Positions 38,352-58,219 of a stretch of DNA of 64,000 nt are shown piece after piece. Within the stretch, counting starts at the first letter, position 1. The number at the start of each line of letters is the position of its first letter. The position numbers were made by a program, and so were the translations under genes. The DNA is from Phyllobacterium sophorae (lineage in GTDB: Bacteria > Pseudomonadota > Alphaproteobacteria > Rhizobiales > Rhizobiaceae), in NCBI RefSeq assembly GCF_003010965.1, contig NZ_PGGM01000017.1:62001-126000 (forward strand), written 5' to 3'. Under the pieces are notes generated by a model, which worked only from the letters and a program-made list of their open reading frames with translations, was not told where the DNA came from and did not search any database.

Positions 38352-39200
38352 GGTTATGTTAACAAAGTACCTTCCCAAATCAGGCGGGAAATGATTCAAG
38401 ACTGCTTTTTAGGAGGCGGTTTTGGCACGAGGCGATTTGAGCGACCCAGAATGGCGGATCGTCGAGCCGCTCTTACCGACAGAACGCGGGCGTAAGTCGC
38501 GTCCATCCCACGATAACCGCCGCTTTTTGAACGGGATGCTTTATGTCTTGCGCGTCGGTTGTCCATGGCGCGACATGCATGAGCGGTACGGCAAGTGGAA
38601 CTCGATCTATGTGCGTTTCCGTCGCTGGGCTGAGCAAGGCGTGTGGGACGCCCTGCTGGAGACGCTCGTGGAATTGGGGCTGACCGATGACTGGCAGCAT
38701 ATGATCGACAGCACGACGGTTCGAGGCCATTCACAGGCAGCGGGCGCTAAAGGGGGACTTATAGGGAGGCTTTTGGTCGATCACGCGGCGGCTTTACGAC
38801 AAAAATCCATGCCCGCGCGGACGGTCAAGGACGCCCTCTTGGCTTCGTCCTGACGGGCGGCGAAACCTCAGATTTCGCCGCTGCGCCTGACTTGCTGGCA
38901 ATGCCAGTCGGCAAACCAAGACTGTTTCTGGCCGATAAAGGCTATGATGGTGACGCCATTCGCGAAGAGCTTTTAATTCACGGCATAAAGCCAGTCATTC
39001 CACCCAAAGCGAACCGCAAAAACCCGCCATCGTGCGATTTCAAAGCCTACAAGGATCGCAATCGTATCGAGCGGATGTTCAATAGACTTAAACAATTCCG
39101 ACGCATTGCTACACGTTACGACAAGACCCGAAAATCCTTCGAAGCCTTCCTAGCTTTAGCCGCGGCAAGGATTTGGCTGCCACATTTTGTCAACAGGACC
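38352..39200 (+). mobile_element. IS5-family (IS427-group-like) insertion sequence, 849 bp
   Basis: The left end GGTTATGTTAACAAAGT and the reverse complement of the right end, GGTCCTGTTGACAAAAT, agree at 13 of 17 positions. Both ends are flanked by TA (38350-38351 and 39201-39202), the usual target duplication of the group. It encodes a two-frame transposase. Two older fragments of related elements lie at 32580 and 32992. Confidence 0.85.
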
Positions 39201-39203
39201 TAG
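38422..39203 (+). CDS. IS5-family transposase, two frames joined by -1 frameshift
   Basis: The first frame runs 38422-38853 (TTG start, AGGAGG six bases upstream; DPEWRIVEPLLPTERGRKSR, and MIDSTTVRGHSQAAGAKGG with the first catalytic Asp). The -1 frame continues the protein as REAFGRSRGGFTTKIHARAD to a stop at 39201-39203 and holds ADKGYDGDAIR (second Asp) and DRNRIERMFNRLKQF (Glu). The slip site AAAGGGGG is at 38749-38756. The joined protein is complete. Its stop TAG is formed by the TA of the target duplication plus a host G. Confidence 0.88.
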
Positions 39204-39540: not shown

Positions 39541-40671
39541 TCAGAAGAGCAAGAGTGTTCGCAGGAGGCTTTCAAATGTAACCTTCGTGTTATCGGTCTG
39601 CCAGTCCGGGCGCGTATCGTCCCCGCGCTTGTGTATGTTGCTGGGGCTATATCCGAACTGTTGCGTGAAAGCGCGACTAAAGTTGGCTGCTGAATCGAAA
39701 CCGATTGCCAAACCAACTTGGGCTATCTTTCGGGGGTCTGAAGGATCGGCCAACATCGCATGCGCTGCGGACAGGCGCCGTCGGCGAATATAGTTCGCAA
39801 CGCCGCCGGAGGTTTCGAAGAGTTCGTAGAGGCGCGTCCTCGAGATCGCCAGTTCCCGGCCGAGAGCATCCGGTGTCAGGTCGGGCGAGGCAAGGTTGCT
39901 CAGTATGAAGCGTCTCGCCCGCGTCATCAATCCTATCTGCGAAATCTGATCATTACTGCCTTCACGGTCCACCAAGGGCGTAATCGTGTCAAAAATCATT
40001 TCCCGCAAGCGGTCCTTGACGCCCGGAAGATCGTCGTGCGTTAGTCGATTGAGATTTCCTTCAATGCTCGACAGAAAATCGATAAGCAATTTCGCTCGGT
40101 ATCCACCTAAAACGACGTTTTTGCTTGCGGTCGTCAAGCCACCTCGATCGGCATACAGGTCAACCGGAACGATCAAGCTGACCGAATCCGTTGCCAATGC
40201 CCGCCCGCTGAACGGATGACCGAGTGAGCGAACTTCAATCATACCTGGTTCATTTTGCGCAACCCGTCCATCAATGCCGGTCCAAGTGCGACCGACACGG
40301 AGGAACGTTATCTGCCAATGGTCAATTGGACTGAACCGCACCTGGTCTGGCGAGCGTTCATAACGGAAAGCCGGAGCGGTTTGTTGCAGCAACAGCATGC
40401 CGCCCAAATTCCAGACAGCTTGCCGGACGACGAATCCATCCTCGGGACCAACATTGTCCGGCAAACGCGTGTCTGACAACACCGCCATATGCTCCTGCCA
40501 GGCAAGAAACTGCTTGTGTGGGGCAAGGCTTTCCGTCTCAAAACGCAGCGGATTCAAGAGGGTGTTTTTCACCTCATCGTCACCAAGGGGATCTTGTGAG
40601 ACGCGCGGCCAGCGACGACGTTCTATGGATACCGGCTCTAGATGCGGCTCATCCTCACGATCATCCGACAT
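39541..40671 (-). CDS. AraC-family transcriptional regulator
   Basis: A 376-residue regulator: an AraC_binding_2/cupin-like N-terminal domain (~60-240) and a C-terminal double HTH (~275-370: TPDALGRELAISRTRLYELF, VGLAIGFDSAANFSRAFTQQ, FGYSP). Start ATG at 40671 (another at 40674) after GGGGGC; the open frame to 40770 has no ribosome-binding site. It sits upstream of, and divergent from, the polysaccharide operon. In S. meliloti the AraC-like c-di-GMP sensor CuxR occupies the neighbouring position. An RxxxR string (RRWPR, residues ~20-24) is present, but I do not see the rest of a c-di-GMP signature, so equivalence is only a hypothesis. Confidence 0.85.
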   Translation of the reverse strand: MSDDREDEPHLEPVSIERRRWPRVSQDPLGDDEVKNTLLNPLRFETESLAPHKQFLAWQEHMAVLSDTRLPDNVGPEDGFVVRQAVWNLGGMLLLQQTAPAFRYERSPDQVRFSPIDHWQITFLRVGRTWTGIDGRVAQNEPGMIEVRSLGHPFSGRALATDSVSLIVPVDLYADRGGLTTASKNVVLGGYRAKLLIDFLSSIEGNLNRLTHDDLPGVKDRLREMIFDTITPLVDREGSNDQISQIGLMTRARRFILSNLASPDLTPDALGRELAISRTRLYELFETSGGVANYIRRRRLSAAHAMLADPSDPRKIAQVGLAIGFDSAANFSRAFTQQFGYSPSNIHKRGDDTRPDWQTDNTKVTFESLLRTLLLF

Positions 40672-41530
40672 CATTGCCCCCAGCCAAAATCCGGAATGAC
40701 GAAAACGTCGTGCATTGTTAGCATCGTATAGCCGTCTCTGCTCGCTTGCCGAATGTACGAAGGTACGCAATCGCCATGGATCGCGCCAACCGCCGAACCT
40801 GTCTCGCAGATAGTTAAGGAGTTCAAAAATAATACGATGTCAAGGGCCAGGAAATCTAGCAGTAGCATGTCCACCCCGTTTTACTTTGAAGTTCTCATTT
40901 ATTACTAGGCCCAGATCCGAGCGATAGGCACCGAAAACTCTCTCCTTCATAACGATTCAAGGTGTCGCCCCAAATCAACGGTGTGCTTTCCAGTTATCTA
41001 CGCGATCCTGAACCACACGTGAATGAGCGTCCTGGAGGAGGTCCTCCAGTTCCATTCGTTTCCGGACTTAGGCGCGTGAGTGCTTGTGTCCGCGGCGGCC
41101 CGAATAACTGGCTGCGGCGCGCCGCCCTCAGGACTTTACATTTTAAGAGTTGCGGGCGGATTGTGAGGGCTGACCGTCGCGGGCTTGCGATGGTCCCAGT
41201 TCGCCACACATCTCGAAACGAACACCCGTCCAGCCAGTGTGTGATGATGCTGCGGCAAAGAAGTGCTGTTCGGTGCGGACAGGTTCGACCAATTCACAGC
41301 GTTCTGCGCCAAGGCGGACCATTCAGGCCTGCTGATATCCAAAAATGGACGAATTGAATAGTTTCCGGATTCCCTGATATCGCAACTCAGTAAGGGGGAC
41401 GATATTAGAAATGACGAAATTCGCTTCAGGAAAAAACCGGAAAAGCTCTGTTAGTTTTCAGTGATTTTCACATGTCTTCTTCCTTCGCAAGCATTAACGC
41501 AAATATCGTTGTTATAGTTGGGAGAGTTCT
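40672..41530. other. Long upstream region of the polysaccharide operon
   Basis: About 860 bases without a credible gene. The last 200 bases are AT-rich and contain a TATAGT-like -10 string around 41514. The ribosome-binding site for uxs is GGGAGAG at 41520-41526. Length and composition suggest complex regulation; no clear operator was found. Confidence 0.4.
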
Positions 41531-42544
41531 GTGAGCATTGTCTTCAATTCGTCTAACTTTCGTTCTGATCGCGCCTCGAAACGACGCGTTCTTGTTGCGG
41601 GTGGCGCGGGGTTTCTAGGATCTCATCTTTGTGAATTTCTTTTGCGCGAAGGCCGGACCGTCGTGTGCGTCGACAATTTTTCTACGGGACGGATGGAAAA
41701 TTTGCGCCACCTGCTGCGCTTTGACACGTTCAGCTATGTACGTCACGACATCGTTGATCCGATCGATCTGCCTGTGGACGAGATCTACAATCTCGCCTGC
41801 CCGGCGTCGCCGCCGCACTATCAGGCCGATCCGATCCATACGATGAAGACCAACGTCATCGGTTCACTTAATCTTCTCGAGCTGGCCGCACATTATCAGG
41901 CGCGCATTTTCCAGGCTTCCACCTCGGAGGTCTACGGCGATCCGCACGTGCATCCTCAGCCTGAAAGCTATTGGGGCAATGTCAATTCGTTCGGTCCGCG
42001 GTCCTGCTATGACGAAGGCAAGCGTTCCGCCGAAACACTTTTCTATGACTTCCACAAGCAATACGGCGTCGACATTCGTATCGTGCGCATATTCAACACC
42101 TATGGTCCGCGCATGCGTCCAGACGACGGCAGGGTCGTCTCCAACTTCATCGTACAGGCACTCAAGGGCGAGGATATCACCGTTTACGGCGACGGATCGC
42201 AGACTCGCTCCTTCTGTTATGTCGATGATCTGATCGAAGGTTTTCACCGGCTCATGTACAGTCCTCGGGCCATTCACACGCCGGTCAATATCGGCAATCC
42301 GAGTGAATTCACCGTGCGTGAACTGGCCGAGCAGATTGTCGCCATGACCGGCTCGCCATCGAAAATCGTCTATCACCCTCTGCCTACAGATGATCCGCGC
42401 CAACGCCGGCCCGATATTGCGCTCGCAGAGCGGGAGCTCGGTTGGGCACCGAGCATTGCGCTGACAGACGGCCTGAAGTCGACGATAGCCTATTTCGAAC
42501 GCCAGCTGGTCAGGCCCAATGGGGAACTCGCAGAGGTGGCATGA
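41531..42544 (+). CDS. uxs: UDP-glucuronate decarboxylase (UDP-xylose synthase)
   Basis: A 337-residue SDR-fold enzyme converting UDP-glucuronate to UDP-xylose with enzyme-bound NAD+. Seen: NAD motif GGAGFLGSH (24-32), the UXS marker CPASPPHYQ (90-98), the active-site run TSEVYGDP (131-138) and YxxxK as Y160/K164 in [13 protein letters not shown] start at 41531. Its stop overlaps the next start (ATGA). First gene of a seven-gene operon; its substrate is made by the ugd product in the same operon. Confidence 0.93.
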
Positions 42545-43530
42545 TGAGTGGGCAGAACGTACTGGTTGTCGGCGGCGCGGGCTTTATTGGAAGTCATACC
42601 GCCAAGCTCTTGTCGAGACAGGGTTACAAGCCTGTCGTCTATGACAATCTCTCGACGGGGCATCGCGCATCCGTGCGTTGGGGAACTTTCGTTGAAGGCG
42701 ACATTCTCGACACGCAGCGGCTCATTGCGGTGGTCGAGGATCACGATCCGATCGCGGTGATCCATTTCGCCGCCTCGGCCTATGTCGGTGAATCTGTCGA
42801 GCACCCGGCTAAGTATTACCGCAACAATGTCAGTGGGACGCAGTCGCTGTTGGAAGCTTGCCGGCTCGCCGGCGCACGCAATGTCATCTTTTCGTCAAGC
42901 TGTGCAACCTATGGCGTTCCGGATCAACTGCCGATCCGCGAAGGCGAGGCGCAGCGCCCGATAAACCCATACGGTCGCACCAAGCTGATCGCGGAGCAGA
43001 TGCTTGCCGATTATTCGGTTGCTTATGATCTGGGCTATGTGGCGCTGCGTTATTTCAATGCATCCGGAGCGGATATCGACGGCGAAATCGGCGAAGCCCA
43101 CGATCCTGAAACGCATCTCATTCCGCGGGCCATGATGGCTGCCGCAGGCAGCATCGACTTTCTCGAAATCTACGGCAACGATTACGATACGCCGGACGGC
43201 ACCTGCATCCGCGATTACATCCATGTCGCCGATCTGGCACGCGCGCATGTGCTGGCAGTCGAACATCTCGTCAACGGCGGGGACAATATGGCCGTCAACC
43301 TGGGTACCGGGCGTGGCACCTCAATCAAAGAAATTCTCGATGCGATCGGGCGCCTGACAGGCCGTAACGTGCCGGTTGAAATGCGCGATCGCCGTGCCGG
43401 CGACCCTCCGGTGCTTTATGCTGATCCGGCGCTTGCAGCGGAAAAGCTTGGCTTTCAGGCACTTTATTCCGATCTCGATACGATCATTCGCACGGCGGCT
43501 CCCTTCTTTGGGCTGGAGGTGCGGACATGA
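42541..43530 (+). CDS. uxe: NAD-dependent UDP-sugar 4-epimerase (probably UDP-xylose/UDP-arabinose)
   Basis: A 329-residue GalE-family epimerase: GGAGFIGSH (11-19), SSSCATYG (118-125) and Y144/K148 in NPYGRTK. By sequence it could be UDP-glucose 4-epimerase. Placement directly after a UDP-xylose synthase, as in the S. meliloti uxs1-uxe pair, argues for conversion of UDP-xylose to UDP-L-arabinose. Translationally coupled to uxs; its end overlaps the synthase gene by four bases. Confidence 0.85.
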
Positions 43531-45371
43531 ACACACGCCGTGTCATAGGGGAATCTGCCCAAGACGAACCCTTGTTGATTCCGGTTTTTACCGGCTGGCG
43601 GCGCGTGGAATATCTGCTCGGCGCAGCGTTGTGGGCCGCGGCGCTTGTCTACTTTTGGCGCTGGTGGCTTGAACCTGCCAACCATGTGAATCTTGCGGGC
43701 TCGATTCTGGTTACGGCTATCCTGGCTTGGGTGACGTTGTTGCCGGCCTATTTCATTGTCCTGTTTTTCCGTGCGCGCCGTCCAAGTGGCACGTTGAGAC
43801 TTCCGGCAGGAAGCCGCATCGCTATGGTGGTGACAAAGGCGCCGTCTGAACCTTTCGAGGTGGTGGCCGAGACATTGCGTGCCATGCTGACCCAGGATGT
43901 GGCGCACGACACATGGCTTGCCGATGAGGACCCTTCTGCGGCAACGCTCGCCTGGTGCGAGAAACATGGCGTCTTCGTCTCCACGCGCAAGGGACGCGCG
44001 GACTATCACCGCAAGACGTGGCCACGACGCACGCGCTGCAAGGAAGGCAATCTCGCCTTTTTCTATGACCATTACGGCTACGACGCCTACGATTTTGTGG
44101 TGCAGCTTGATGCGGACCATGTACCGGATTCAGACTATTTGTTTCAGATGCTGCGTCCCTTCGCTGATCCGGCTGTGGGGTATGTCTCCGCACCCAGCAT
44201 TTGCGACCGCAATGCACAAGAAAGCTGGTCCGCGCGCGGACGTCTCTATGCCGAAGCGAGTATGCATGGATCTTTGCAGGCCGGTTACAACAACGGTCTC
44301 GCCCCGCTTTGCATCGGGTCGCACTATGCGGTTCGCACCGCGGCATTGAAGGAAATCGGCGGCCTTGGACCGGAATTGGCGGAAGATCATTCCACCACTT
44401 TGATGATGAATGCCCATGGCTGGCGCGGCGTTCATGCGCTCGACGCCATCGCACATGGCGACGGACCGCGGACATTTGCCGATCTTATCACGCAGGAGTT
44501 TCAATGGTCGCGCAGTCTGGTGATGATCCTGCTGCAGTATTCGCCCAGGCTTGTTGGTCATTTGCCGCTGCGACTGAAATTCCAGTTTCTGTTCTCGCAG
44601 TTCTGGTATCCGCTTTTTTCTCTCTTCATGGCGCTGATGTTTGTCTTGCCGATCTTTGCGCTCGTGTTGGGAGAAAACTTCGTTGCCGTTACCTATCCCG
44701 ATTTCCTGAGCCATTTTCTGCCCCAGGCGATCATGTTGATTGTGTTGGCCTATCGCTGGCGCGCTTCCGGCACATTCCGCTCGCATGATGCGAAAATACT
44801 GAGCGTCGAAATGACCCTGTTTCTGTTCGCGCGCTGGCCATGGGCGATGGCTGGGACGCTGGCTGCGCTGCGCGATTGGGCAACGGGTTCCTTCGTGGAT
44901 TTCCGCGTCACGCCGAAGGGGGCGTCAGAAGTGGATCCCCTGCCGTTCCGTGTGCTCGCACCCTACGGTTTCCTGGCGATTCTCTCGATCCTGCCGGTGC
45001 TGCTTATCCCGGACGCCAGTGACAACAGCCGTGGCTTCTATGTCTTTGCCATCGTCAACGCCGTGATTTATGCGCTCCTCCTGTTCGTTATCGTTCTCCA
45101 GCACGCTCGTGAAAACACGGTTCGCTACCGCACGCGGGTTTATCGCCCAGCGCTTGCCGCCAGCTTGCTTGCTCTTGTGGCTCTGCCGACCTTTGCAACC
45201 GCCGAACGGGGCCGCGACGGCATTGAGGCGCTCGCATGGGGAACCCAAAGCTTTTCCTTGTTCGAGGACCGCTTTTCGGTTGCTGGCGCAGGCGTCGGAG
45301 GTCGCGATGTTCACAAAACCATATTCAATCCGCGCTGGCGCACAAACGCCCCCACCATTTCAACGCAGTAG
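43527..45371 (+). CDS. apsS: Membrane glycosyltransferase, family 2 (cellulose-synthase-like; ApsS-like)
   Basis: A 614-residue processive-type GT2. Two N-terminal helices (~30-82), a cytoplasmic catalytic domain (~95-335) and about six C-terminal helices to ~535. Catalytic elements: LADEDP (131-136), DADHV (195-199) and AEDHSTT (285-291). The product-binding motif is QEFQW (323-327) instead of the canonical Q(Q/R)xRW. There is no PilZ domain. It would polymerise and export a glycan from nucleotide sugars made by its operon. The start overlaps the epimerase stop. Confidence 0.85.
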   Translation: MNTRRVIGESAQDEPLLIPVFTGWRRVEYLLGAALWAAALVYFWRWWLEPANHVNLAGSILVTAILAWVTLLPAYFIVLFFRARRPSGTLRLPAGSRIAMVVTKAPSEPFEVVAETLRAMLTQDVAHDTWLADEDPSAATLAWCEKHGVFVSTRKGRADYHRKTWPRRTRCKEGNLAFFYDHYGYDAYDFVVQLDADHVPDSDYLFQMLRPFADPAVGYVSAPSICDRNAQESWSARGRLYAEASMHGSLQAGYNNGLAPLCIGSHYAVRTAALKEIGGLGPELAEDHSTTLMMNAHGWRGVHALDAIAHGDGPRTFADLITQEFQWSRSLVMILLQYSPRLVGHLPLRLKFQFLFSQFWYPLFSLFMALMFVLPIFALVLGENFVAVTYPDFLSHFLPQAIMLIVLAYRWRASGTFRSHDAKILSVEMTLFLFARWPWAMAGTLAALRDWATGSFVDFRVTPKGASEVDPLPFRVLAPYGFLAILSILPVLLIPDASDNSRGFYVFAIVNAVIYALLLFVIVLQHARENTVRYRTRVYRPALAASLLALVALPTFATAERGRDGIEALAWGTQSFSLFEDRFSVAGAGVGGRDVHKTIFNPRWRTNAPTISTQ

Positions 45372-45389
45372 TAAAAGGCAATCAAACAC

Positions 45390-46820
45390 ATGAAGATCGC
45401 AGTCATAGGAACGGGCTATGTCGGATTGGTCAGCGGGACCTGTTTCGCCGCCTGGGGCCACGAGGTTATATGCGTCGACAAGAACGCTCAGAAAATAGAT
45501 GGCCTCAAACGCGGCGTTGTGCCGATTTACGAGCCCGGTCTGGATGAACTGGTGGAACGCAATTCAGCGGCAGGCCGCTTGCGCTTTACCTGCAATCTGA
45601 CCGAAGCAGTGAAGGGCGCATTGGTCGTGTTCATCGCGGTTGGAACCCCGCCGCGTGCCGGTCAAGGGGATGCTGATCTGTCGTTCGTTTACATGGCCGC
45701 CCGGGAACTGGCGCCGCTGCTTGAAGACGATGCCATTGTGGTGGTGAAGTCCACGGTTCCGGTGGGCACAGGCGATATCGTGCAGAAGATCATCGGATCG
45801 GTGCGTAAAACCGGCGCTTTCTCGGTTGCGTCCAACCCCGAATTCCTGCGGGAAGGCGTTGCTATACGCGATTTCCTGGAGCCTGATCGCGTTGTGATCG
45901 GCGTCGAGGATGAGCGCGCGCGCAAGGTTCTCATGGAACTCTACGGTGTGGCTTTGCAAGCGCACAAGACGCCCATCGTGGTCACCCAGCGCCGGACGTC
46001 GGAACTGATCAAATATGCCGCCAACGCATTTCTGGCGACCAAGATTACCTTCATCAATGAATTGGCCGATCTTTGCGAGCAGGTTGGCAGCAATGTAAGT
46101 GAACTGGCCCTGGGAATGGGTCTCGACAAGCGCATCGGCACGAGTTTCCTCAATGCTGGTCCCGGTTACGGCGGCTCGTGCTTCCCGAAAGATACGATGG
46201 CGCTGTTGCGCACAGCCCAGGACTACGGCGTGTCGGTGCGGATCGTCGAAGAAACTGTGACCGCCAATGAAGCGCGCAAGCGCCGCATGGCTTTGAAAGT
46301 CATGGATGCCTTAGAAGGTGATGTGGAGGGCCGGACGATTGCCGTTCTGGGTCTCACTTTCAAACCTGATACTGATGACATGCGCGATGCACCTTCCGTT
46401 CCCCTCATCGAAACCCTGCAGCGTTTCGGCGCCATTATCCGCGCCCATGACCCCGTGGGTATGGAGAATGCCGGCCGCATCCTCTCGGGTGTCGAGTTTT
46501 TTGACGATCCCTATGAATGCGCGCACAACGCCGATGCTGCTGTCGTCATTACGGAATGGGACAGCATTCGCAAACTCGATCTTGCGCGCCTGAAGAAGAC
46601 CATGCGCCAGGCGGTGTTGATCGATCTCAGAAATGCCTTTGAGCAGGGTGTTGCGGAAGAAATCGGCTTTCGTGTTTCGGCCATCGGCCGATCAACGACG
46701 GCTCGGTATGATGGGAGTAGCTCGACCGCGCTGCCTCACATGGCCGAGCGAGTCCAGCCAGGACCAAGAGCGCAGGGCGCTCATTTCGAGACAGCGGGAG
46801 GTTCCAATGACAATCTCTAA
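45390..46820 (+). CDS. ugd: UDP-glucose 6-dehydrogenase
   Basis: A 476-residue Ugd: NAD motif GTGYVGL (7-13), NPEFLREG (149-156), the lysine region KYAANAFLATKITFINE (208-224) and catalytic Cys264 in GGSCFPKD. It makes UDP-glucuronate, the substrate of Uxs. The C-terminal ~40 residues (after GFRVSAIGRS) are an extra polar tail not needed for catalysis. It lies 18 bases after the synthase gene and overlaps the next gene by 14 bases, so it is firmly within the operon. Confidence 0.96.
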   Translation: MKIAVIGTGYVGLVSGTCFAAWGHEVICVDKNAQKIDGLKRGVVPIYEPGLDELVERNSAAGRLRFTCNLTEAVKGALVVFIAVGTPPRAGQGDADLSFVYMAARELAPLLEDDAIVVVKSTVPVGTGDIVQKIIGSVRKTGAFSVASNPEFLREGVAIRDFLEPDRVVIGVEDERARKVLMELYGVALQAHKTPIVVTQRRTSELIKYAANAFLATKITFINELADLCEQVGSNVSELALGMGLDKRIGTSFLNAGPGYGGSCFPKDTMALLRTAQDYGVSVRIVEETVTANEARKRRMALKVMDALEGDVEGRTIAVLGLTFKPDTDDMRDAPSVPLIETLQRFGAIIRAHDPVGMENAGRILSGVEFFDDPYECAHNADAAVVITEWDSIRKLDLARLKKTMRQAVLIDLRNAFEQGVAEEIGFRVSAIGRSTTARYDGSSSTALPHMAERVQPGPRAQGAHFETAGGSNDNL

Positions 46821-47361
46821 ATCTGAAAGGGCTGGGTTCCTGCGGGGCGCCCGGATGATAACGACAGTTGCTTGCGCCGTATGCTGCATTGCCGCACCGG
46901 CTCTCGCCGCGGCGTCGAAAGCGCCTGACCAGCCGGCAGGAACCCGCGCCATGACGCCTTTCGAAATCTACGCACTGTACAAGGACAAGAGCTGGCAGTG
47001 GGACAACGGCGCGGGGCATATGATGGATGCCGGGCGGCAATTCACGGCCTGGGCCGATGGAGAGAAAGGCAAATCCTGGGCAGAAGGTCGCTGGGTCATC
47101 ACCGGGACAGGCGGGTTGTGTCTCAATGCGACATGGCATTCCGGGCAGGGCGCTTTTCCAGCCAAGACCTGTTTCTCCCATCGTATCGGCAATGGAACCA
47201 TCTATCAAAAGCGCGAGCCCGATGGTGAGTGGTACGTCTTTCGCCACGCCAAAGCACGCGAAGACGACGAGGCCCACAAGCTGGTATTCACCGATCTGGT
47301 TTCTCAACAACGCGACAGCATCAAAACCGCGCTTGGCGCGGCCCAGTTGCCCGAACAATAA
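46807..47361 (+). CDS. Secreted DUF995-family protein
   Basis: A 184-residue exported protein: signal peptide to about residue 35 (ACAVCCIAAPALAAAS), then a DUF995 domain (EIYALYKDKSWQWDNGAGHM, WAEGRWVITGTGGLCLNATW, YVFRHAKAREDDEAHKLVF) with two cysteines (LCLNA, TCFSH). Corresponds in position to apsH1 in the S. meliloti locus. Paralogous to the protein at 48457. Likely periplasmic, assisting polymer export or processing; mechanism unknown. Confidence 0.82.
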   Translation: MTISKSERAGFLRGARMITTVACAVCCIAAPALAAASKAPDQPAGTRAMTPFEIYALYKDKSWQWDNGAGHMMDAGRQFTAWADGEKGKSWAEGRWVITGTGGLCLNATWHSGQGAFPAKTCFSHRIGNGTIYQKREPDGEWYVFRHAKAREDDEAHKLVFTDLVSQQRDSIKTALGAAQLPEQ

Positions 47362-47376
47362 GAAAAGGAGGGGGCG

Positions 47377-48321
47377 ATGAAAAGTCTCTATAAACTAACC
47401 GCAGCTTTGCTTTGCGGTGCATTCGTTTCCGGTGGCGTATATGCGGCCAGCGGTGTGTCAGGAGCGAGTATTGACGGCCGCAACAAGTTTCAGGATAAGC
47501 GGCCCATCATCACGGCTGACGCCGTGACACCCGGCGCCTATGATCCGCACGGGGATTATACCAACGATTCCAATTCCAAGATCGAACACCTGTTCCTGCC
47601 GTGGGAGGATGTGGATCTGACCACACTCAGTGCTGCGGACGCCTATGCGCGCGAGCGTGGACGATCCCTCTTGATCACCATCGAACCGTGGTCCTGGGCG
47701 CGAGAGTGGCGCATCAGCCCGGACGATCTGCTCAATGGGATCCTGGCCGGACGGTACGATTCCAACATGTCGGCGGTCTGCTCCGCCGGAGCAAAGCTGC
47801 AAAGCCCGGTCACGATCCGCTGGGCGCAGGAAATGGAAGATAATGACGGGCAGTTCACGTGGGCCTTCTGGAAGCCGGAAGGTTATGTGAAGGCCTATCG
47901 ACATGTAATCGATGTATGCCGCAAGCAATTTCCGTCGGCCCAATATATGTGGTCGCCGAAAGGAGAGGAGGGGCTGGAAGCCTACTATCCGGGGGATGAA
48001 TATGTCGACATCATTGGTCTGTCCGTCTTTGCCTACCAGCCCTATGACAAACTGGAGGTCGGTCACGACACGACGTTTGTTGAGCGGACAAAACCCGGAT
48101 ACGATCGTGTAACCCGCTTCGGCAAACCAATCGCTATTGCCGAGCTTGGCTATGAAGGCAACGACGATTACGTTCGCAACTGGGCGGCAGAAGCAAACAA
48201 GCCACATACCGAGTTCCCTGCACTGACTGCGGTTGTCTACTTCAACGATCGTGAAGTCTATCCGTGGCCGAGGGATGTCGGCCGACCTGATTGGCGCGTC
48301 GCCAACCATCCGCTGGAGTGA
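47377..48321 (+). CDS. apsE: Secreted glycoside hydrolase, GH26-like (ApsE-like)
   Basis: A 314-residue periplasmic or extracellular TIM-barrel hydrolase. Signal peptide (LTAALLCGAFVSGGVYAASG). The acid/base glutamate is in TIRWAQEMEDNDG (~residue 153) and the nucleophile glutamate in AIAELGYEG (~residue 252), the clan A pattern of GH26 and related families. Very strong ribosome-binding site (GGAGGGGG). It would trim or release the polymer made by the operon's synthase, as endoglucanases do in cellulose operons. Confidence 0.82.
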   Translation: MKSLYKLTAALLCGAFVSGGVYAASGVSGASIDGRNKFQDKRPIITADAVTPGAYDPHGDYTNDSNSKIEHLFLPWEDVDLTTLSAADAYARERGRSLLITIEPWSWAREWRISPDDLLNGILAGRYDSNMSAVCSAGAKLQSPVTIRWAQEMEDNDGQFTWAFWKPEGYVKAYRHVIDVCRKQFPSAQYMWSPKGEEGLEAYYPGDEYVDIIGLSVFAYQPYDKLEVGHDTTFVERTKPGYDRVTRFGKPIAIAELGYEGNDDYVRNWAAEANKPHTEFPALTAVVYFNDREVYPWPRDVGRPDWRVANHPLE

Positions 48322-48456
48322 TCCCCGGCTTTTAACTGAGCGGTTCGACTTTGCACAAGTTCGCGACCCGCTCCATCCCTTTGTTCTATGCTGTTCCAAA
48401 GCAAGAGCCCCAACGCATTGTCGCTGGAACTGCCTTATTAGTCAGGAGTGAAAAAA

Positions 48457-48975
48457 ATGTATCCGATCCGTTCAATTATCGTCAGTACGGCGCTGTCCGC
48501 ACTCTTGCTGGCTGGTAACGCCAGCGCTGCATCCAGGGCACAAGTCGATGATGCGACAGCAAAGCTTGCCGCCGCCGCGCCGCCGATGAAGCCCGTGGCG
48601 CTTGAAAAGCTCTATGCCGGTCGCACATGGAAATGGAAGGACGGGGGCGGGTTCTTTTCCGCCGACCGAAACCAGTTTTCCGCATGGACGCGCAAGGGGG
48701 CAGCCTGGTCTTACGCCGAGGGGCGTTGGTATGCGGCCAAGGGTGGAAAACTCTGCTTGCAGGCTCTGTGGTCGAGCAAGATGGAAAGAGGCGGCGCAGT
48801 CACTTGTTTCCTGCATCGCGAAAAGGACGGCGTCATTTACCAAAAGCCAAGCTTGGGTGGCAGCTGGTATGTCTTCCGGCATAACCCCGTTCAGGAAGGG
48901 GATGAAGCGCTCAAGCTGGTCAAAGGCGATCGGGTGAGCAAAGAAGCGGCCCAGCTCAAGGCCATTCGTCGATAA
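48457..48975 (+). CDS. Secreted DUF995-family protein, second copy
   Basis: A 172-residue exported protein: signal peptide (IIVSTALSALLLAGNASA), then DUF995 (KLYAGRTWKWKDGGGFFSAD, YAEGRWYAAKGGKLCLQALW, YVFRHNPVQEGDEALKLV) with the same paired cysteines (LCLQA, TCFLH) as the 46807 protein. The ATG at 48457 has AGGAG eight bases away; the GTG at 48448 does not fit. Last gene of the operon, 135 bases after the hydrolase gene. Confidence 0.82.
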   Translation: MYPIRSIIVSTALSALLLAGNASAASRAQVDDATAKLAAAAPPMKPVALEKLYAGRTWKWKDGGGFFSADRNQFSAWTRKGAAWSYAEGRWYAAKGGKLCLQALWSSKMERGGAVTCFLHREKDGVIYQKPSLGGSWYVFRHNPVQEGDEALKLVKGDRVSKEAAQLKAIRR

Positions 48976-49803: not shown

Positions 49804-49949
49804 GTATATGAATTATATTGACACAATGCCACAAAACTGAAATGATCCAAGGGTCGGGCTTCGGGAGGAAGGTCGGCGTCAATCCATGCAGTGAAGCGCT
49901 TGAGCGCTCGCGATCGTTATTGAGGATGGCTTCGGCCAGGGGAGGAATC

Positions 49950-50981
49950 TTGCGCAATTTTCTGAGCACAATCGCCATTGCCGCGGCGGCGTCGACCTTT
50001 TTGGGTTCGGCCCATGCCCTTGCCGAGGCCGCCAATCCGTTCCGGTGCAAACCGGACGAAAAATACGTCATGAACGTCATGGTCTCGGGGGTAGAATATT
50101 GGTTCCCGGTCTACGAGATGTTCAAACAGGCCGCGCAGCAGTTTGGCTGCAAGACCGAGTATACGGGCACGCCCGAATATGACGTAAACAAACAGATCGC
50201 TACCTTTGACCAAGCCCTGGCGCAAAAGCCGGCTGGCGTCCTGGTGCACCCGATGAACTCCGATCCGTTTATCGAGCCAATTAATCGCGCCATCGAACAG
50301 GGCACTGCCGTGGTGACTTTCGCAGCCGATTCACCCAATTCAAAGCGCGTCTCCTACATCACTTCCGACAATGTGGCCGAAGGGACTTATGCAGCAGATG
50401 CAGTGGCCAAGGCCATGGGCGGCAAGGGTGAATATGCCGTCCTGGAGAATCCTGGTCAGGATAATCACGACAAACGTGTCGCTGCCTTCATTGCTCGGAT
50501 GGAAAAAAAGTGGCCCGACATGAAGCTTGCGGGCAGAGCCGCTTCCAATCAGGATCCCACGAAGGCTTACCAGGCGGTGTTGAGTCTGACGCAAGCCCAT
50601 CCTGATCTCGGCGCTGTGTTTATGCCGGAAGCCAATTCCGCGATTGGAGCGGCCCAAGCTGCGAAGGAGGGTGGCGGCAAGGTTCGTGTGATGCTTGCCG
50701 ACGTCAATGCCAAAATTCTCGACATGATCAAGGCCGGTGAGATATTCGGTTCGGTGAACCCGAACCAGGGCATGCAGGGCTATATGGGCTTCATGCTGCT
50801 TTGGCTGGCCAAGCATCCAGACCTGATCGATCCTATGAACGATGCCAAGCGGTCAGGCTTCAATGCCATGAGCGTGCCCTTTGTCGATAATGGCTTTTCC
50901 ATTGTGACAGCCGAGAACGCTGACGATTTCTACTGGGACAAATATCTTCAGCGGCGCGGCACAAAGGGCATTGAGGAATAA
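49950..50981 (+). CDS. Sugar ABC transporter substrate-binding protein (RbsB type)
   Basis: Periplasmic sugar-binding protein of the peripla_BP_4 family, ~343 residues. The TTG at 49950 is preceded by AGGGGAGG and opens a good signal peptide (LSTIAIAAAASTFLGSAHAL). ATG at 49926 is an alternative, but its upstream GAGG is too close. The candidate promoter excludes a start near 49818. The mature protein has the family pattern EYTGTPEYDVNKQIATFDQA, GVLVHPMNSDPFIEPINRAI and LADVNAKILDMIKAGEIFGS. It supplies the importer encoded next. Ligand: a monosaccharide or polyol, unknown. Confidence 0.88.
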   Translation: MRNFLSTIAIAAAASTFLGSAHALAEAANPFRCKPDEKYVMNVMVSGVEYWFPVYEMFKQAAQQFGCKTEYTGTPEYDVNKQIATFDQALAQKPAGVLVHPMNSDPFIEPINRAIEQGTAVVTFAADSPNSKRVSYITSDNVAEGTYAADAVAKAMGGKGEYAVLENPGQDNHDKRVAAFIARMEKKWPDMKLAGRAASNQDPTKAYQAVLSLTQAHPDLGAVFMPEANSAIGAAQAAKEGGGKVRVMLADVNAKILDMIKAGEIFGSVNPNQGMQGYMGFMLLWLAKHPDLIDPMNDAKRSGFNAMSVPFVDNGFSIVTAENADDFYWDKYLQRRGTKGIEE

Positions 50982-51083
50982 CAACACCCATTGTGTTCGA
51001 TTGGCCAGCACAACGTCTGGATTACGGGAAGGGGTATCAGCGCCCCTTTCCATCCCTCACACGGGTCGATCCCAGGAGCTATC

Positions 51084-52625
51084 GTGACCGAAGCACCAAT
51101 CCTTGAAATCCGCAACCTCACAAAGACATTCGGTCCCGTCCTGGCATTGAGCGAGGTCAAATTCGAACTGTTTCGCGGTGAGATACACGCGCTGTGCGGT
51201 GAAAATGGCGCGGGCAAGTCGACACTTATGAATATGATCGCGGGGCTTCTGCAGCCAGATGATGGCGAAATCGTTGTGGATGGGCAGCGCGTCTCCATTG
51301 CATCACCGGCTGCGGCTCAGTCACTGGGGATCGCGCTCGTCCATCAGGAAATTGCCCTATGCCAGGATGCCACCGTGGCAGAAAATATCTACATGGCGGC
51401 AATCAACCGGCGGCGCATGCCCCTGATGAACTACCAAAAGCTTTACTGCGACGCACAAAGAGTGATGGATCTGCTCGCCCCCATTCCAGTGCGAACGAGG
51501 GTTGCCGATCTGTCTATCTCCAATCAGCAACTGGTGGAAATCGCAAAAGCGCTGACGCTCGATTGCAAGGTCCTGATGCTCGACGAGCCGACGGCGGCGC
51601 TGACCGAAAGTGAGGCGCGGCGGCTGTTCGCCATCGTGCGCGGGCTCAAGCAGCGCGGCATATCGATTGTTTATATCAGTCATCGCATGGCGGAGATATT
51701 TTCGCTGTGCGACCGCATAACCATTTTCCGCGATGGGCGTTACGTTGCGACCGACCCGATCGAGGCGGTTTCACCCGATGATGTGGTCCGCAAGATGGTG
51801 GGGCGCGAGATCACCCAGCTCTATCCTGACAAGCTCTTGCCACAGGAGAAACCCGGGCGCGCGATCCTCTGCGTCGAGGGCCTTGCCGACGGCAAGCGTT
51901 TTGCCGATGTGGATATCGAAGTGCGCGAGGGCGAAATACTCGGCGTTGGCGGCCTCATAGGCGCCGGCCGCAGCGAGATCGCCCAAACCATTTGTGGTAT
52001 CCGGGCCGCCGTGGCCGGAACCATCGCACTCAATGGTTCGCCGCTTAACATTCGCCACTATCGCGACGCGGTAGACGCTGGCCTCGTCTACCTGTCTGAG
52101 GACCGCAAGGGATCAGGTTTGTTTCTCGATATGCCGATCGCCGCCAATATCGCTGCACTGGACCTCGGCAGGCTGACGGGCCGGCTTGGATTGCTCGACC
52201 GACGTGCGGAGGCCCAGCAGGCCAGCTGTTTAACCAGAAGGCTCGGCGTGCGCATGGCCGGGGTCGAAGCGGCAGTCTCGACACTGAGCGGCGGCAATCA
52301 GCAGAAGGTGGCGATCGCCAAACAGCTGTCCATCAGCCCTAAGGTCATCATCATGGACGAGCCGACCCGCGGTATTGATGTCGGGGCAAAGGTGGAGATT
52401 CATCGCTTGCTGCGCCAGCTCGCAAGTCAGGGTGTCGGCATCATCGTAATCTCGTCAGAACTGCCCGAACTCATTGGGCTGTGTGATCGGGTGATGGTTG
52501 TACGTGAAGGCAAGATTGCTGGCGAACTCGGCGCGGACGAACTCAGCGAGGAAGCGATCATCCTGCTTGCCTCGGGCGTGCAACAGACGTCAACACAGCA
52601 AGAGGAAGCCAAAAATGTCGCTTAG
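51084..52625 (+). CDS. Sugar ABC transporter ATP-binding protein, two nucleotide-binding domains (RbsA/MglA type)
   Basis: A 513-residue fused ATPase. First domain: Walker [10 protein letters not shown] (~residue 40), [16 protein letters not shown]. Second domain: [17 protein letters not shown] in place of a canonical Walker A, signature [15 protein letters not shown] and [13 protein letters not shown]. The degenerate second Walker A is usual for this family. Start GTG at 51084 with AGGAG six bases upstream. The gene overlaps the permease gene by 11 bases. Confidence 0.94.
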
Positions 52626-53625
52626 GCAAGCGGGAGAAACGACTATGGCGGTCGAGATCAAGCCGGCAGGGCGCAGAGGCAATATCGCCCGCATGGCCAC
52701 GCTGCGCGAAGCCGGTCTGATCGCTATTATTTTGGCGCTCTGCATCGCCATGAGCTTCGCGTCGCCGCATTTCCTCACCTGGGGTAATCTGCGCGCGATG
52801 ATGATGAGTTTCTCGATCGAAGGCATCGTCGTCGTTGGCATGACCATTCTTCTCATCGTCGGTGGCATCGATCTTTCGGTGGGTTCCGTCGTCTGTTTCT
52901 CGATGGTGGTTTCGGGTGCACTGTTTCTTTCCGGGCTCGACCCGTGGACGGCCAGCCTCATCGGCATCGCAGCCAGCGCACTTATCGGTGCAGTCATGGG
53001 CTTTTTTGTCACCGTGGTCGGTCTGAACCACTTCATAACGTCGTTAGCTGCCATGGTGATTGTCCGCGGCATGTGTTTGGTCGTCACCAAGGGCACGCCG
53101 CTGTCGCTCTTTACCCTGCCTCCTGAATTCAAGGCGCTGGGCCAAGGCAGCTTTCGCGACATCCCCTATGTGATTTTGATCTTCGTCATGGTTGTGGCCA
53201 TCTTCGACTTCCTGCTGCGGCGTGCAACAGCCTTCCGCAAGGTCTTCTATACCGGCTCCAACGAGAAAGCCGCCCAATATTCGGGTATAAAGACCAGTCA
53301 TGTGAAGTTCTGGGTCACGGTTCTCTGCTCAACCCTTGCGGGCCTGGCAGGCGTCATCTACATGGCGCGCTTTGGTGCCGCCACGCCCACCTTTGGCGCC
53401 GGTATGGAGCTTAACATCATCGCTGCGGCGGTTATCGGCGGTGCTTCGCTCAATGGTGGCTCTGGCACTATTTTCGGGGCAATCCTTGGCATGGCGCTCC
53501 TTTCTGTCGTGACCAGTTCGCTGATCCTGCTCGACGTGTCGGTTTACTGGCAGGACATGATCAAGGGCTGTATTCTGCTCGCGGCGGTATCGATCGACCA
53601 TTTCCTGCACAGCAGGAAATTTTAA
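52615..53625 (+). CDS. Sugar ABC transporter permease (RbsC type)
   Basis: A 336-residue inner-membrane permease of the BPD_transp_2 family with about eight to ten helices. Family markers: [40 protein letters not shown]. Start at the overlapping ATG 52615 (AGAGGAAG upstream); MAVEIK at 52645 is a possible alternative with GGGAG upstream. Only one permease is encoded, as expected for a homodimeric RbsC-type channel. Confidence 0.93.
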
Positions 53626-53651
53626 TCCATTTCGAGGCGACGAGATAAATT

Positions 53652-54632
53652 ATGGCCCCATTGAGCACACGCGATGATATTTCCACCATCCGCCAGTTGC
53701 ACCAGGCGCTGGTTCTTCATTATGTCGAAGGCAAGACGCAGGCGGAGATCGCCAAGGAGCTCGGTATCTCGCACGCCACCGTCAACCGGCTTATCAAGCG
53801 CGGCCATCAGCTTGGTCTCGTCGAAATCAAGATTAAGTCTCCGATCGATCATCTACTCGAGATCGAGGCGCGGCTGGTGGCACTTGGCGGGATCGACAAT
53901 GCCGTCGTTGTGCCGTCAGTGTCGGACAATCCCCAGACCGCCCTCCAGCGCGTCGGCGAGGCAGCAGCACGATTGCTCCTTGATACGATAAAGAACGGCG
54001 ACAAGATCTCGATCACCGGCGGCAAAGGGGTGAGCGCGCTCGTCGCAGGGCTGAAGCCGGGCCGAAATTATGATGTCGAAGTCATTCCGGCCACGGGCCT
54101 GGTGCAGGGCAAACACTATACTGACGTTAATCATGTCGCTTCGTTGATGGCCGACAGGCTCGGTGGCCGCGCCTATCAGATGCATGCACCGCTCTTTGCT
54201 GATACGCCGCAACAGCGCGAGATGTTGATGGGCGTGCGCTCGGTAGCCGACGTTTTTCGCAAGGCCCGCGAAGCTGATGTTGCAGTGGTCGGAATCGGCT
54301 CCATTCTGACTGATGATTCGAGCTATTACGACTTGCATCCATCCTCGAGCGCGGACCGAAGCGCCATCGAAAAGTCGGGCGCTGCCGGCGAGTTGCTCGC
54401 GCATCTCATCGACCGTGACGGCCGGGTCTGTGACTACACACTCAACCGCTCGCTGGTTTCGCTGACGCTGGATGAATTCGCGACCATCCCCCGTTCGATC
54501 GGGATCGCGAGTGGCGCAAGCAAGGTAGCTCCAATCCTCAGCGCAATGCGCGGCAACCATCTCGACACGATCGTTACGGATGAGGCAACAGCCCTCCAGA
54601 TACTTGACCTCGCCAACCCGGAGGCAGCATGA
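53652..54632 (+). CDS. SorC-family sugar-binding transcriptional regulator
   Basis: A 326-residue regulator: N-terminal HTH (KTQAEIAKELGISHATVNRL, residues ~28-47) and a C-terminal sugar-phosphate-binding domain from ~60 (SITGGKGVSALVAGLKPGRN, VAVVGIGSILTDDSSYYDLH). Similar to EryD of Brucella and DeoR/SorC regulators that respond to phosphorylated sugars. It lies within the operon, between transporter and enzyme genes, and probably acts at the palindrome at 49790. Overlaps the next start (ATGA). Confidence 0.92.
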   Translation: MAPLSTRDDISTIRQLHQALVLHYVEGKTQAEIAKELGISHATVNRLIKRGHQLGLVEIKIKSPIDHLLEIEARLVALGGIDNAVVVPSVSDNPQTALQRVGEAAARLLLDTIKNGDKISITGGKGVSALVAGLKPGRNYDVEVIPATGLVQGKHYTDVNHVASLMADRLGGRAYQMHAPLFADTPQQREMLMGVRSVADVFRKAREADVAVVGIGSILTDDSSYYDLHPSSSADRSAIEKSGAAGELLAHLIDRDGRVCDYTLNRSLVSLTLDEFATIPRSIGIASGASKVAPILSAMRGNHLDTIVTDEATALQILDLANPEAA

Positions 54633-55624
54633 GCTCCCCACAAACTCTACGCCAGATCGGCAGGTCCGGCATTTCCGCATCGGCCGTGGGCCTGGGTACC
54701 TGGGCGATCGGCGGTTGGATGTGGGGCGGCACCGACGAGCAGATGTCGACGCGTGCTATCGAAGCGTCCATTGATGCCGGCGTCAGCCTGATCGACACCG
54801 CCCCGGCCTACGGTCTTGGCCGCAGCGAGGAAATCGTCGGCAAGGCCATCAGGGGCAAGCGTGATAAGGTGGTGATCGCCACCAAATGCGGGCTTAACTG
54901 GCACTCGGGCAAGGGCAACCATTTCTTCGATCAGGACGGCAAAGCCGTCAATCGCTACCTCGGCGCTGATGGAATTGCGCACGAAATCGAGCAAAGTCTG
55001 CGCCGGCTGGGCACCGACCATATCGACCTTTATATCACGCACTGGCAAGATCCGACCGCGCCTATCGTTGAAACTATGGCCGCGCTTGAACGAGTTCAAG
55101 CTGCCGGCAAGATCCGCGCCATTGGAGCCAGCAATCTCAGCTCTGGGGATCTCGACCAGTACGTCGGCTCGGGTCAGCTCGACGCTATCCAGGAACGCTA
55201 CTCAATGATTGACCGGGAGATCGAGGGAAGCCTTCTTCCAATCGCCCGTCGCAACAAAATTGCAACGCTCAGCTATTCCTCCCTTGGCCTCGGCCTTCTT
55301 ACCGGCGCCATTGATCCCGAACGCAAGTTCGCGGGCGACGACCAGCGCAAGGATAACCCCCGCTTTTCAAAGGCCAACCGGCAGAAAGTAGCACTCCTGA
55401 AGGAAGCGATTACACCAATTGCCGCGCAGCACGATGCAACAATGGCCCAGATCGCCATCGCATGGACCCTCGCTCAGCCAGGCATCACCTTCGCCCTGTG
55501 TGGTGCGCGGAACCCGGAGCAGGCGATCGACAATGCGCGGGCCGGGACAATCGCGCTCGCTGCCAGCGAAGTTGCCGCCATTGATTTGGCTGTCGCTACG
55601 CTTCTGGTGGCAATGGATGCCTGA
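54629..55624 (+). CDS. Aldo/keto reductase
   Basis: A 331-residue NADP-dependent AKR with the catalytic tetrad D56, Y61, K86 and a histidine in LYITHWQDP. The segment DTAPAYGLGRSEEIVGKAIR is typical of the AKR11-13 groups (YajO/IolS-like). It may interconvert the imported sugar or polyol, or handle the aldehyde released by the operon's aldolase. Both are inferences from context. Confidence 0.92.
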   Translation: MSSPQTLRQIGRSGISASAVGLGTWAIGGWMWGGTDEQMSTRAIEASIDAGVSLIDTAPAYGLGRSEEIVGKAIRGKRDKVVIATKCGLNWHSGKGNHFFDQDGKAVNRYLGADGIAHEIEQSLRRLGTDHIDLYITHWQDPTAPIVETMAALERVQAAGKIRAIGASNLSSGDLDQYVGSGQLDAIQERYSMIDREIEGSLLPIARRNKIATLSYSSLGLGLLTGAIDPERKFAGDDQRKDNPRFSKANRQKVALLKEAITPIAAQHDATMAQIAIAWTLAQPGITFALCGARNPEQAIDNARAGTIALAASEVAAIDLAVATLLVAMDA

Positions 55625-55643
55625 TCGGAGAGGCACTGCCAGG

Positions 55644-57362
55644 ATGAATCGCAGTGAAATTATTGCCGCTCTCCGCGATCAGCCCGAGGTGGCGGTGCTC
55701 GTCATTGGGGGCGGCATCAATGGTATAAGCGTGTTTCGCGAGCTGGCCCTGCAGGGTGTCGATGTCGTCCTGGCGGAGAAAGGCGACTATTGCTGTGGCG
55801 CGAGTGCAGCGCTTTCGCGCATGGTCCATGGCGGCTTACGCTATCTGGAGAATGGCGAGTTCAAGCTGGTGCGGGAGTCGCTCCTCGAGCGCGACCGGTT
55901 GTTGAAAAATGCCCCACATTACGTGATGCCGCTACCGACGACTGTTCCGGTATTCGACACGTTTTCCGGAATCGCTAACGGCGTTGTGCGCTTTTTCGGA
56001 CTGACGCGTCGACCGAGCCGCCGCGGTGCGCTGGTGATCAAAGCTGGGCTTATCATGTACGATCTGTTCACGGCGGCGAGGCGATTGTTGCCCAAACACC
56101 GGTTCAGGCGCCGCGCCGAGACGTTGAAGACATGGCCGGCGATTAACCCTGCGATCCGAAGCTCAGCCACCTACTACGACGCTTGGGTGAGCCGGCCCGA
56201 GCGGCTTGGCTTCGAAATGCTGCACGACGCCATGGCAGCCGGATCCTCCGCGCGGGCTTTGAACTATGTGCGGGTGTCGTCAAGCGAGGAGGGGCTTGTC
56301 CTCACCGATGCCTTGTCAAACGCCGCGTTGCCGCTTCGCCCGCGCCTTGTCATCAATGCCACAGGCGGCTGGATCGACCTGACCAACACGGCAATCGGGG
56401 CATTTGCGCCGCCGATGATGGGTGGCACCAAGGGTTCGCACCTGATCATCAACAACGGCGAACTTTTCAACGCCCTTGACGGCCACATGATCTACTATGA
56501 GAACGAGGATGGCCGCATTTGCATCCTGTTCCCCTATCTCGGCAACGTGTTGGTCGGCTCGACCGATATCCGCGTCGATGACCCCGAACAGGTGCGTTGC
56601 GAAGACGATGAGCGCCGCTACATCCTCCAGTCGCTCTCCTTCGTATTTCCATCCATAGCAATCAGCGACGAGGAGATCATGTTTCGCTTTTCCGGTGTCA
56701 GACCGCTGCCCGCCAGCGAGGATAGCTTCACCGGACGCATACCGCGTGACCACTTTTGTGAATTCATCGAAGGACCCGGACATTTGCCGCCTATCCTTTG
56801 CATGATTGGTGGCAAGTGGACGACCTTCCGCTCATTCGGGGCATTGGCGGCTGATATGGCGTTGAAACGTCTCGGATTGGCACGCAGCGTCAGTACCGAA
56901 GAGCTTGCCATTGGCGGCGGCTGCGACTTTCCTGCGGATTGTACACAATGGTGCCTCTCATTTGCCGCACGGCACGGAGTGACTCCAGAGCGTGCATCGA
57001 CGCTCCTGGAACGTTACGGCACTTGGGCTGAGGATGTCGCGGGCTATTGCGCCCGAACACCAGAGGCGATGCTAACGCAGTGCGGTTACTCGGCCAATGA
57101 AATTCGTTTCATCATCGAGCGGGAGCATGTTGAGTGTCTGGCTGATCTTTTCCTGCGCCGCACGACGATTGCTATCGCTGGCGGCCTCAGCCTGGATTTG
57201 ATCGACGAAGTTAGCAATATCATGGCCCTCCAGAAGGGCTGGGACGCCACCAAGGCGAGCGCCGAGCGCTTGGACTTCTTATCGTTGCTGGAATATCGGC
57301 ACGGCATCGACCTTTCGAACCTCTCCCGCATTCATGATAAAAGGAGCGCCCTATGCGCGTGA
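55644..57362 (+). CDS. FAD-dependent glycerol-3-phosphate dehydrogenase family protein (GlpD/EryB-like)
   Basis: A 572-residue flavoprotein: FAD motif VLVIGGGINGISVFRELALQ (~19-38), SRMVHGGLRYLENGEFKLV, GGTKGSHLII, and a C-terminal DAO_C domain. Normal GlpD proteins are 500-570 residues. In Brucella the relative EryB oxidises a tetritol phosphate. In a catabolic operon with a sugar kinase, oxidation of a polyol phosphate is more likely than glycerol use (inference). Start ATG at 55644; the open frame upstream is a shadow of the reductase gene. Overlaps the aldolase gene by ten bases. Confidence 0.9.
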   Translation: MNRSEIIAALRDQPEVAVLVIGGGINGISVFRELALQGVDVVLAEKGDYCCGASAALSRMVHGGLRYLENGEFKLVRESLLERDRLLKNAPHYVMPLPTTVPVFDTFSGIANGVVRFFGLTRRPSRRGALVIKAGLIMYDLFTAARRLLPKHRFRRRAETLKTWPAINPAIRSSATYYDAWVSRPERLGFEMLHDAMAAGSSARALNYVRVSSSEEGLVLTDALSNAALPLRPRLVINATGGWIDLTNTAIGAFAPPMMGGTKGSHLIINNGELFNALDGHMIYYENEDGRICILFPYLGNVLVGSTDIRVDDPEQVRCEDDERRYILQSLSFVFPSIAISDEEIMFRFSGVRPLPASEDSFTGRIPRDHFCEFIEGPGHLPPILCMIGGKWTTFRSFGALAADMALKRLGLARSVSTEELAIGGGCDFPADCTQWCLSFAARHGVTPERASTLLERYGTWAEDVAGYCARTPEAMLTQCGYSANEIRFIIEREHVECLADLFLRRTTIAIAGGLSLDLIDEVSNIMALQKGWDATKASAERLDFLSLLEYRHGIDLSNLSRIHDKRSALCA

Positions 57363-58195: not shown

Positions 58196-58219
58196 CAACA
58201 GCGGACTCGGGAGGATCAA

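Follow-up and report, generated by a model that had tools for sequence, protein, structure and literature searches.

An arabinose-polysaccharide-type operon with its own ugd gene beside a CuxR homologue in Phyllobacterium sophorae

The operon and its S. meliloti counterpart

We analyzed a window of 64,000 nucleotides from Phyllobacterium sophorae, in which seven tightly packed genes at positions 41531-48975 encode, in order, Uxs, a GalE-type epimerase, a CesA-like GT2, Ugd, a DUF995 protein, a GH26-like hydrolase, and a second DUF995 protein. A preliminary description of this DNA had proposed these genes in this order on the forward strand, and sequence, Pfam, and solved-structure matches confirm the proposal. 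The operon opens with uxs (41531..42544, +), which encodes a UDP-glucuronate decarboxylase (UDP-xylose synthase), followed by uxe (42541..43530, +), which encodes a GalE-family UDP-sugar 4-epimerase; uxe starts at the ATG at 42541, overlapping uxs by 4 bp, rather than at the mechanical ORF start at 42442. The gene for the CesA-like GT2 polysaccharide synthase, apsS (43527..45371, +), starts at 43527 and overlaps uxe, again by 4 bp. Behind it lies ugd (45390..46820, +), whose product, a UDP-glucose 6-dehydrogenase, carries the motif GGSCFPKD and has Pfam support. The first DUF995 gene, in the apsH1 position (46807..47361, +; PF06191, E 1.8e-55), most likely starts at the ATG at 46807, after a GGGAGG, and would then overlap ugd by 14 bp. 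The operon closes with apsE (47377..48321, +), encoding a GH26-like glycosidase (PF02156), and the second DUF995 gene, in the apsH2 position (48448..48975, +; PF06191, E 2e-52). From uxs through this last gene, the intergenic gaps are -4, -4, 18, -14, 15, and 126 bp.

The seven genes had been likened to uxs1/uxe/apsS/apsH1/apsE/apsH2 of the arabinose-containing polysaccharide (APS) locus of Sinorhizobium meliloti, an alfalfa symbiont, and the comparison supports that correspondence. Every product but Ugd matches our S. meliloti reference (locus L039, strain RCAM1115), at 37 to 77% identity: 73% for Uxs, 69% for Uxe, 77% for the synthase, 54% over 134 residues for the first DUF995 protein, 56% for the hydrolase, 37% for the second DUF995 protein, and 45% for CuxR, the product of the neighboring regulatory gene. 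A search of L039 for Ugd found none. Both loci have a divergent AraC/CuxR gene, the order uxs-uxe-synthase-DUF995-GH-DUF995, and a 44-bp element before uxs; they differ in the ugd gene that lies between the synthase gene and the first DUF995 gene here. The DUF995-GH-DUF995 tail of CuxR/APS operons is present in P. sophorae, and the S. meliloti trait of an operon without ugd is not. Since 57 of the 111 loci that we compared have ugd in this slot (Ugd hits >300 bits; a Ugd fragment in locus L047 is left out of the count), its absence does not define the wider family. The gene order itself recurs across many of the 111 loci, far beyond chance. The preliminary identification of the locus was essentially right; it missed the CuxR regulator and the probable operator, and to these we add the scars of ugd loss and the DUF995 association.

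Among plasmid records, the best named synthase match is that of Phyllobacterium sp. A18/5-2 (96.5%). In the locus of that strain (L038, 9001-10844), uxe and the synthase gene are each split over two ORFs, through mutation or sequencing error. Locus L131 has uxs at a greater distance from the operon, and L132 has both uxs and uxe at a greater distance. One record titled Bacillus subtilis SK6B4 (L110) holds a Pseudochrobactrum-like APS operon and is probably a mislabelled or contaminated assembly.

The leading genes, uxs and uxe, are assigned by homology to a UDP-xylose synthase and a UDP-xylose 4-epimerase. Uxs matches 2b69, UDP-glucuronate decarboxylase 1, which we take to be the human enzyme (E 1.7e-114), and its CYDEGK (YxxxK) motif is present in 105 of 107 Uxs hits. 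Uxe scores 415 bits against TIGR01179 and matches 4twr at E 5.9e-180; its profile match is a UDP-glucose 4-epimerase, which cannot discriminate substrate. The putative substrates of Uxe are UDP-Xyl/UDP-L-Ara and possibly also UDP-Glc/UDP-Gal. Passages of PMC9938287 describe the Sinorhizobium Uxe as bifunctional and repressed by MucR. Operon Ugd scores 445 bits against TIGR03026, and a regex for its motif recognized 51 of 57 Ugd hits. The earlier claim that one operon encodes the complete route from UDP-Glc to UDP-L-Ara is supported, as a prediction.

Elsewhere in the window, an IS4/5-family transposase in two ORFs (38422-38853 and 38892-39203), apparently broken, lies between SDR genes and cuxR, and a HipA-like gene occupies 15710-17032 (-). 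Positions 49818-61350 hold a sugar ABC importer, a SorC/DeoR-type regulator, an aldo/keto reductase, a glycerol-3-phosphate-dehydrogenase-like gene, a DeoC/LacD aldolase, an FGGY kinase, and a GMC oxidoreductase; together they probably form a cluster for the catabolism of a polyol or sugar.

History of ugd in the operon

The preliminary description spoke of ugd as inserted here, a wording that the wider comparison does not support. The same slot is filled in 48 of 80 named loci (the best 80 of 512 confirmed, ranked by closeness to the query), and the count over all compared loci given above, with the family-wide sample below, led us to reject the idea that it is unique to the source genome. 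We also sampled 297 genomes evenly across the family; ApsS occurs in 40, and in 19 of these 40 a Ugd lies directly behind it among the matches listed (to E 1.1e-147), by coordinates compared by eye, with 16 of the 21 negatives checked as loci L129-L144. Another Ugd match occurs elsewhere in 15 of the 19 ugd-bearing genomes, among the matches listed; in the other four (G138, G211, G270, and G068), none of the listed matches besides the operon copy reaches E 1e-60 or better. The literature that we searched, Schaper 2017 and 2019 lying outside it, yielded no description of ugd inside an APS operon.

Two histories could account for this distribution. The gene may have been inherited with the operon and lost repeatedly, or it may have been gained independently several times by transfer. 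We regard the latter as unlikely, albeit with real points in its favor. On the synthase tree, unordered parsimony needs at least 12 changes of ugd state over all 111 rows, and four distant operon Ugds stand outside the main clade, their joint grouping with it being rejected by an AU test (p 4.6e-6) whose groups were chosen after an earlier tree and in which long branches lead to two of the four. Because these four lie outside, ugd seems to have entered the slot more than once, and further gains are possible. The 53 main-clade operon Ugds, however, group in a single clade (SH-aLRT 87, below the starred level), and their distances covary with those of ApsS (r 0.84 over 52 loci, with 0 of 1000 permutations as high; L038, with its split synthase, is excluded) more than those of Uxs do (0.68). 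A single gain would require nine losses in the 91-row ApsS clade, and direct traces of loss exist: remnants of Ugd lie directly behind apsS in 4 of 54 ugd-less loci, with both ends in L047, L104, and L094 and a C-terminal piece only in L120 (E 8e-5).

These remnants establish loss of ugd in the lineages of those four loci, and they make early presence with repeated loss likelier than insertion in P. sophorae. We therefore return to inheritance and loss as the preferred history, with ugd probably entering the operon no later than the base of the CuxR-linked clade and several losses following. Scars of Ugd were looked for behind apsS in Sinorhizobium loci and none were found; loss in Sinorhizobium is probable as well. 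The fuller, ugd-bearing operon may be the older, with ugd lost in some lineages, and the gene in the operon is a common, probably old, variant of the known APS system.

The synthase, its companions, and the polymer

A refutation once envisaged for this locus was a synthase that grouped with unrelated GT2 families. Instead, ApsS and its S. meliloti counterpart share a clade of 91 rows with a support of 100 (FastTree). All 111 synthase rows have QEFQW in place of QxxRW, and this motif marks ApsS as a group of its own in the alignment, apart from BcsA with QRGRW. Bacterial BcsA shares the GT2 domain, but ApsS aligns only locally to the BcsA structures 5ej1/4hg6, at 68 bits only, and a Pfam search of ApsS gave no PilZ match. 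We rejected cellulose synthase as an identification on that missing PilZ match and a TIGR03030 score of 73.7 bits against a cutoff of 699.1. Control of the APS system by c-di-GMP is presumably transcriptional, through CuxR, unlike that of BcsA.

Profile matches of ApsE are led by beta-1,3-xylanases (2ddx, E 1.6e-9), with mannanases close behind, and its model (pLDDT 70, moderate) has a GH26 lichenase as its best Foldseek match (E 6.9e-14). ApsE shares with GH26 endo-beta-1,3-xylanases and lichenases the fold and both catalytic Glu positions; in the fold match, however, it is only 19% identical to the lichenases. The residues at these positions, E152 and E256, do not vary among the 43 aligned proteins, and a strict acid/base regex (RWAQE or RWAHE) matched 66 of 121 GH hits. 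E256 aligns with a Glu of AlXyn26A that, allowing for an offset of one, we take to be the residue mutated in the E243A entry. From the 2ddx alignment and general knowledge of GH26, E152 would be the acid/base.

The DUF995 family, PF06191, occurs in 45 of the 297 family-wide genomes, 39 of them among the 40 with ApsS (the exception being G326) and 6 among the 257 without it (G096, G144, G156, G215, G225, and G301, with a best match of 2.2e-23), where the ApsS and DUF995 samples are taken as identical, their handles agreeing. We examined six of ten DUF995 loci outside the operon, one from each of these six genomes, and found no APS genes nearby, save a weak Uxe-profile hit in L182. In the source genome, both DUF995 copies belong to this operon. 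The first is predicted to be exported and beta-rich; its model (pLDDT 85.6) has a confident beta-rich domain and a C-terminal helix. Foldseek gave no match to this model at E 0.001 or better (the best, at 0.18, were lipocalin-type barrels) and the DUF995 profile had no match in the PDB, so we assign no function from fold. In the literature searched for DUF995 function, the sole match to the term concerned a rice gene.

ApsS probably makes a pentose surface polymer, its probable arabinose content being taken by analogy from S. meliloti. Schaper 2019 is said to have found APS to be mainly or only arabinose. Under the inverting chemistry of GT2 enzymes, UDP-beta-L-arabinopyranose would give an alpha-L-arabinopyranan, which is stereochemically near beta-xylan and might be cleavable by a GH26 xylanase relative. 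A chain that is no arabinan but contains GlcA or xylose (a xylan, a glucuronoxylan-like polymer, or a mixed one), with products that differ between operons with and without ugd, is in our judgment improbable. Operon Ugd would supply UDP-GlcA as well, and profile searches place ApsE closest, among solved structures, to beta-1,3-xylanases; yet synthases from operons with and without ugd interleave within one clade, all keeping QEFQW, the presence of ugd varies between close relatives (L106 versus L120, L052 versus L047), and the seven genes contain no second glycosyltransferase. For the earlier suggestion that the polymer made here may differ, we found no positive evidence, and a pentose polymer remains the preferred reading. 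One point against the overall APS reading comes from passages of PMC7902896, according to which R. favelukesii has an APS cluster yet formed no wrinkled colonies.

CuxR, its probable operator, and the proposed pathway

Divergent from uxs lies a gene for an AraC-family homologue of CuxR (39541..40770, -; a 409-aa ORF with HTH_18). Its product matches PDB 5nla over residues 37-383 (E 2e-91), an entry whose title says no more than putative regulator and which we take to be CuxR; stretches of 5nla agree with the divergent regulator of L039 at 84 of 86 and 99 of 103 residues. The RxxxR motif reads ERRRWPR here (R52..R56). Both of its arginines are kept in 88 of 89 CuxR rows from 85 loci, the remaining row having a gap, and neither of the two AraC paralogues in the source genome that cover this region keeps both (a third paralogue does not reach this region). 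CuxR binds c-di-GMP through RxxxR, as stated in part of PMC9045272, and from its conservation we infer that the motif here is the one meant there. Passages of other papers have CuxR activating APS production (PMC7902896, PMC8546604) and binding more than one motif (PMC8151288). Four Rhizobium loci (L051, L053, L063, and L065, two of them titled R. rhizogenes) have the operon flanked by cuxR-like genes on both sides.

An alignment of the upstream regions of nine close loci contains a single conserved block, a 44-bp element that lies at 41343..41386 (+) here and has two half-sites (G-N-A-Y ... GATAA) 20 bp apart. Of the 85 CuxR-linked loci, 43 served to train a matrix, which recovered the element in all 42 held-out loci, with a lowest score of 24.7. 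Among loci without a linked cuxR, it was found in 3 of 22, the other 19 scoring 6.0 or less; 4 of the 111 loci were unscored, as the uxs hit or 300 bp upstream was missing, and all of these counts are of related loci, not independent events. We searched for cuxR elsewhere in the genomes of five loci that lack a linked copy. In the three exceptions (L054, L104, and L121), it is present at 44-46% identity with RxxxR kept. L057 and L103, inside the ApsS clade, have neither a linked cuxR nor the element; their genomes also carry cuxR elsewhere, perhaps as part of a second copy of the operon. Over 2.28 Mb of loci, including those used for training, the matrix scored above 22 at 92 sites, with 87 upstream of uxs and 5 elsewhere, and the reversed matrix gave 0. 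Allowing up to 3 mismatches, a pattern tuned to the window matches the source genome at a single site. Matrix self-similarity over offsets of 14-27 bp is highest at 20 bp (0.369), followed by 26 bp (0.350) and 16 bp (0.337). A sigma-70 scan found promoter-like sites no commoner than in shuffles (4 versus 4.5).

Some relatives carry the element away from an APS operon. In two Rhizobium lusitanum loci (L195, 7627-9018; L196, 11389-12775), the element comes after cuxR, the 19-kb stretches yielded no APS gene, and the APS operon, with an element of its own, is located elsewhere in the genome. In Ensifer sp. LCM 4579 (L197, 9622-12166), a uxs-like gene (54%) is divergent from cuxR, the element lies between the two or overlaps the cuxR start, and no uxe or synthase gene was detected in 19 kb.

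These comparisons show a link between the element and CuxR, and the element is likely the CuxR operator. That it is instead a conserved promoter or a MucR-related element is very unlikely: conservation does not by itself name the binder, and the loci are related, but the element tracks cuxR and not uxs, being absent from 19 uxs-bearing loci without a linked cuxR, L057 and L103 included, it adjoins cuxR in L195 and L196, and its half-site spacing, narrowly the best of 14 offsets, fits an AraC-family site.

We hold with considerable confidence that this is a CuxR/APS locus, in which a c-di-GMP-switched CuxR would activate an operon for UDP-pentose supply and polymer synthesis. At high c-di-GMP, by analogy with S. 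meliloti, CuxR would bind c-di-GMP via RxxxR, occupy the 44-bp direct-repeat element, and activate uxs-uxe-apsS-ugd-DUF995-apsE-DUF995. Ugd, Uxs, and Uxe would take UDP-Glc through UDP-GlcA and UDP-Xyl to UDP-L-arabinopyranose, from which ApsS, a predicted inner-membrane processive GT2, would polymerize the pentose and push the chain outward. ApsE, a putative retaining GH26-like enzyme, may trim or release the chain, and the DUF995 pair, if exported as predicted, may assist in the periplasm or outside. More tentatively, we suggest a broader scenario that is possible but about which we have some doubt: a ugd-bearing operon as the ancestral form and the S. meliloti operon as a reduced one, ApsS as a class of its own for UDP-L-arabinopyranose, DUF995 as nearly private to the system, and a single operator, spaced at 20 bp, coupled to c-di-GMP.

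The element offers one testable CuxR binding site across many Hyphomicrobiales, and DUF995, a domain of unknown function, becomes tied to one polysaccharide system. A ugd gene in the operon could free precursor supply from the housekeeping UDP-GlcA pool, and the four genomes in which the operon copy is the sole Ugd match at E 1e-60 or better among those listed may make their UDP-pentoses without relying on a housekeeping Ugd. The operon studied in S. meliloti may, in turn, be a reduced form.
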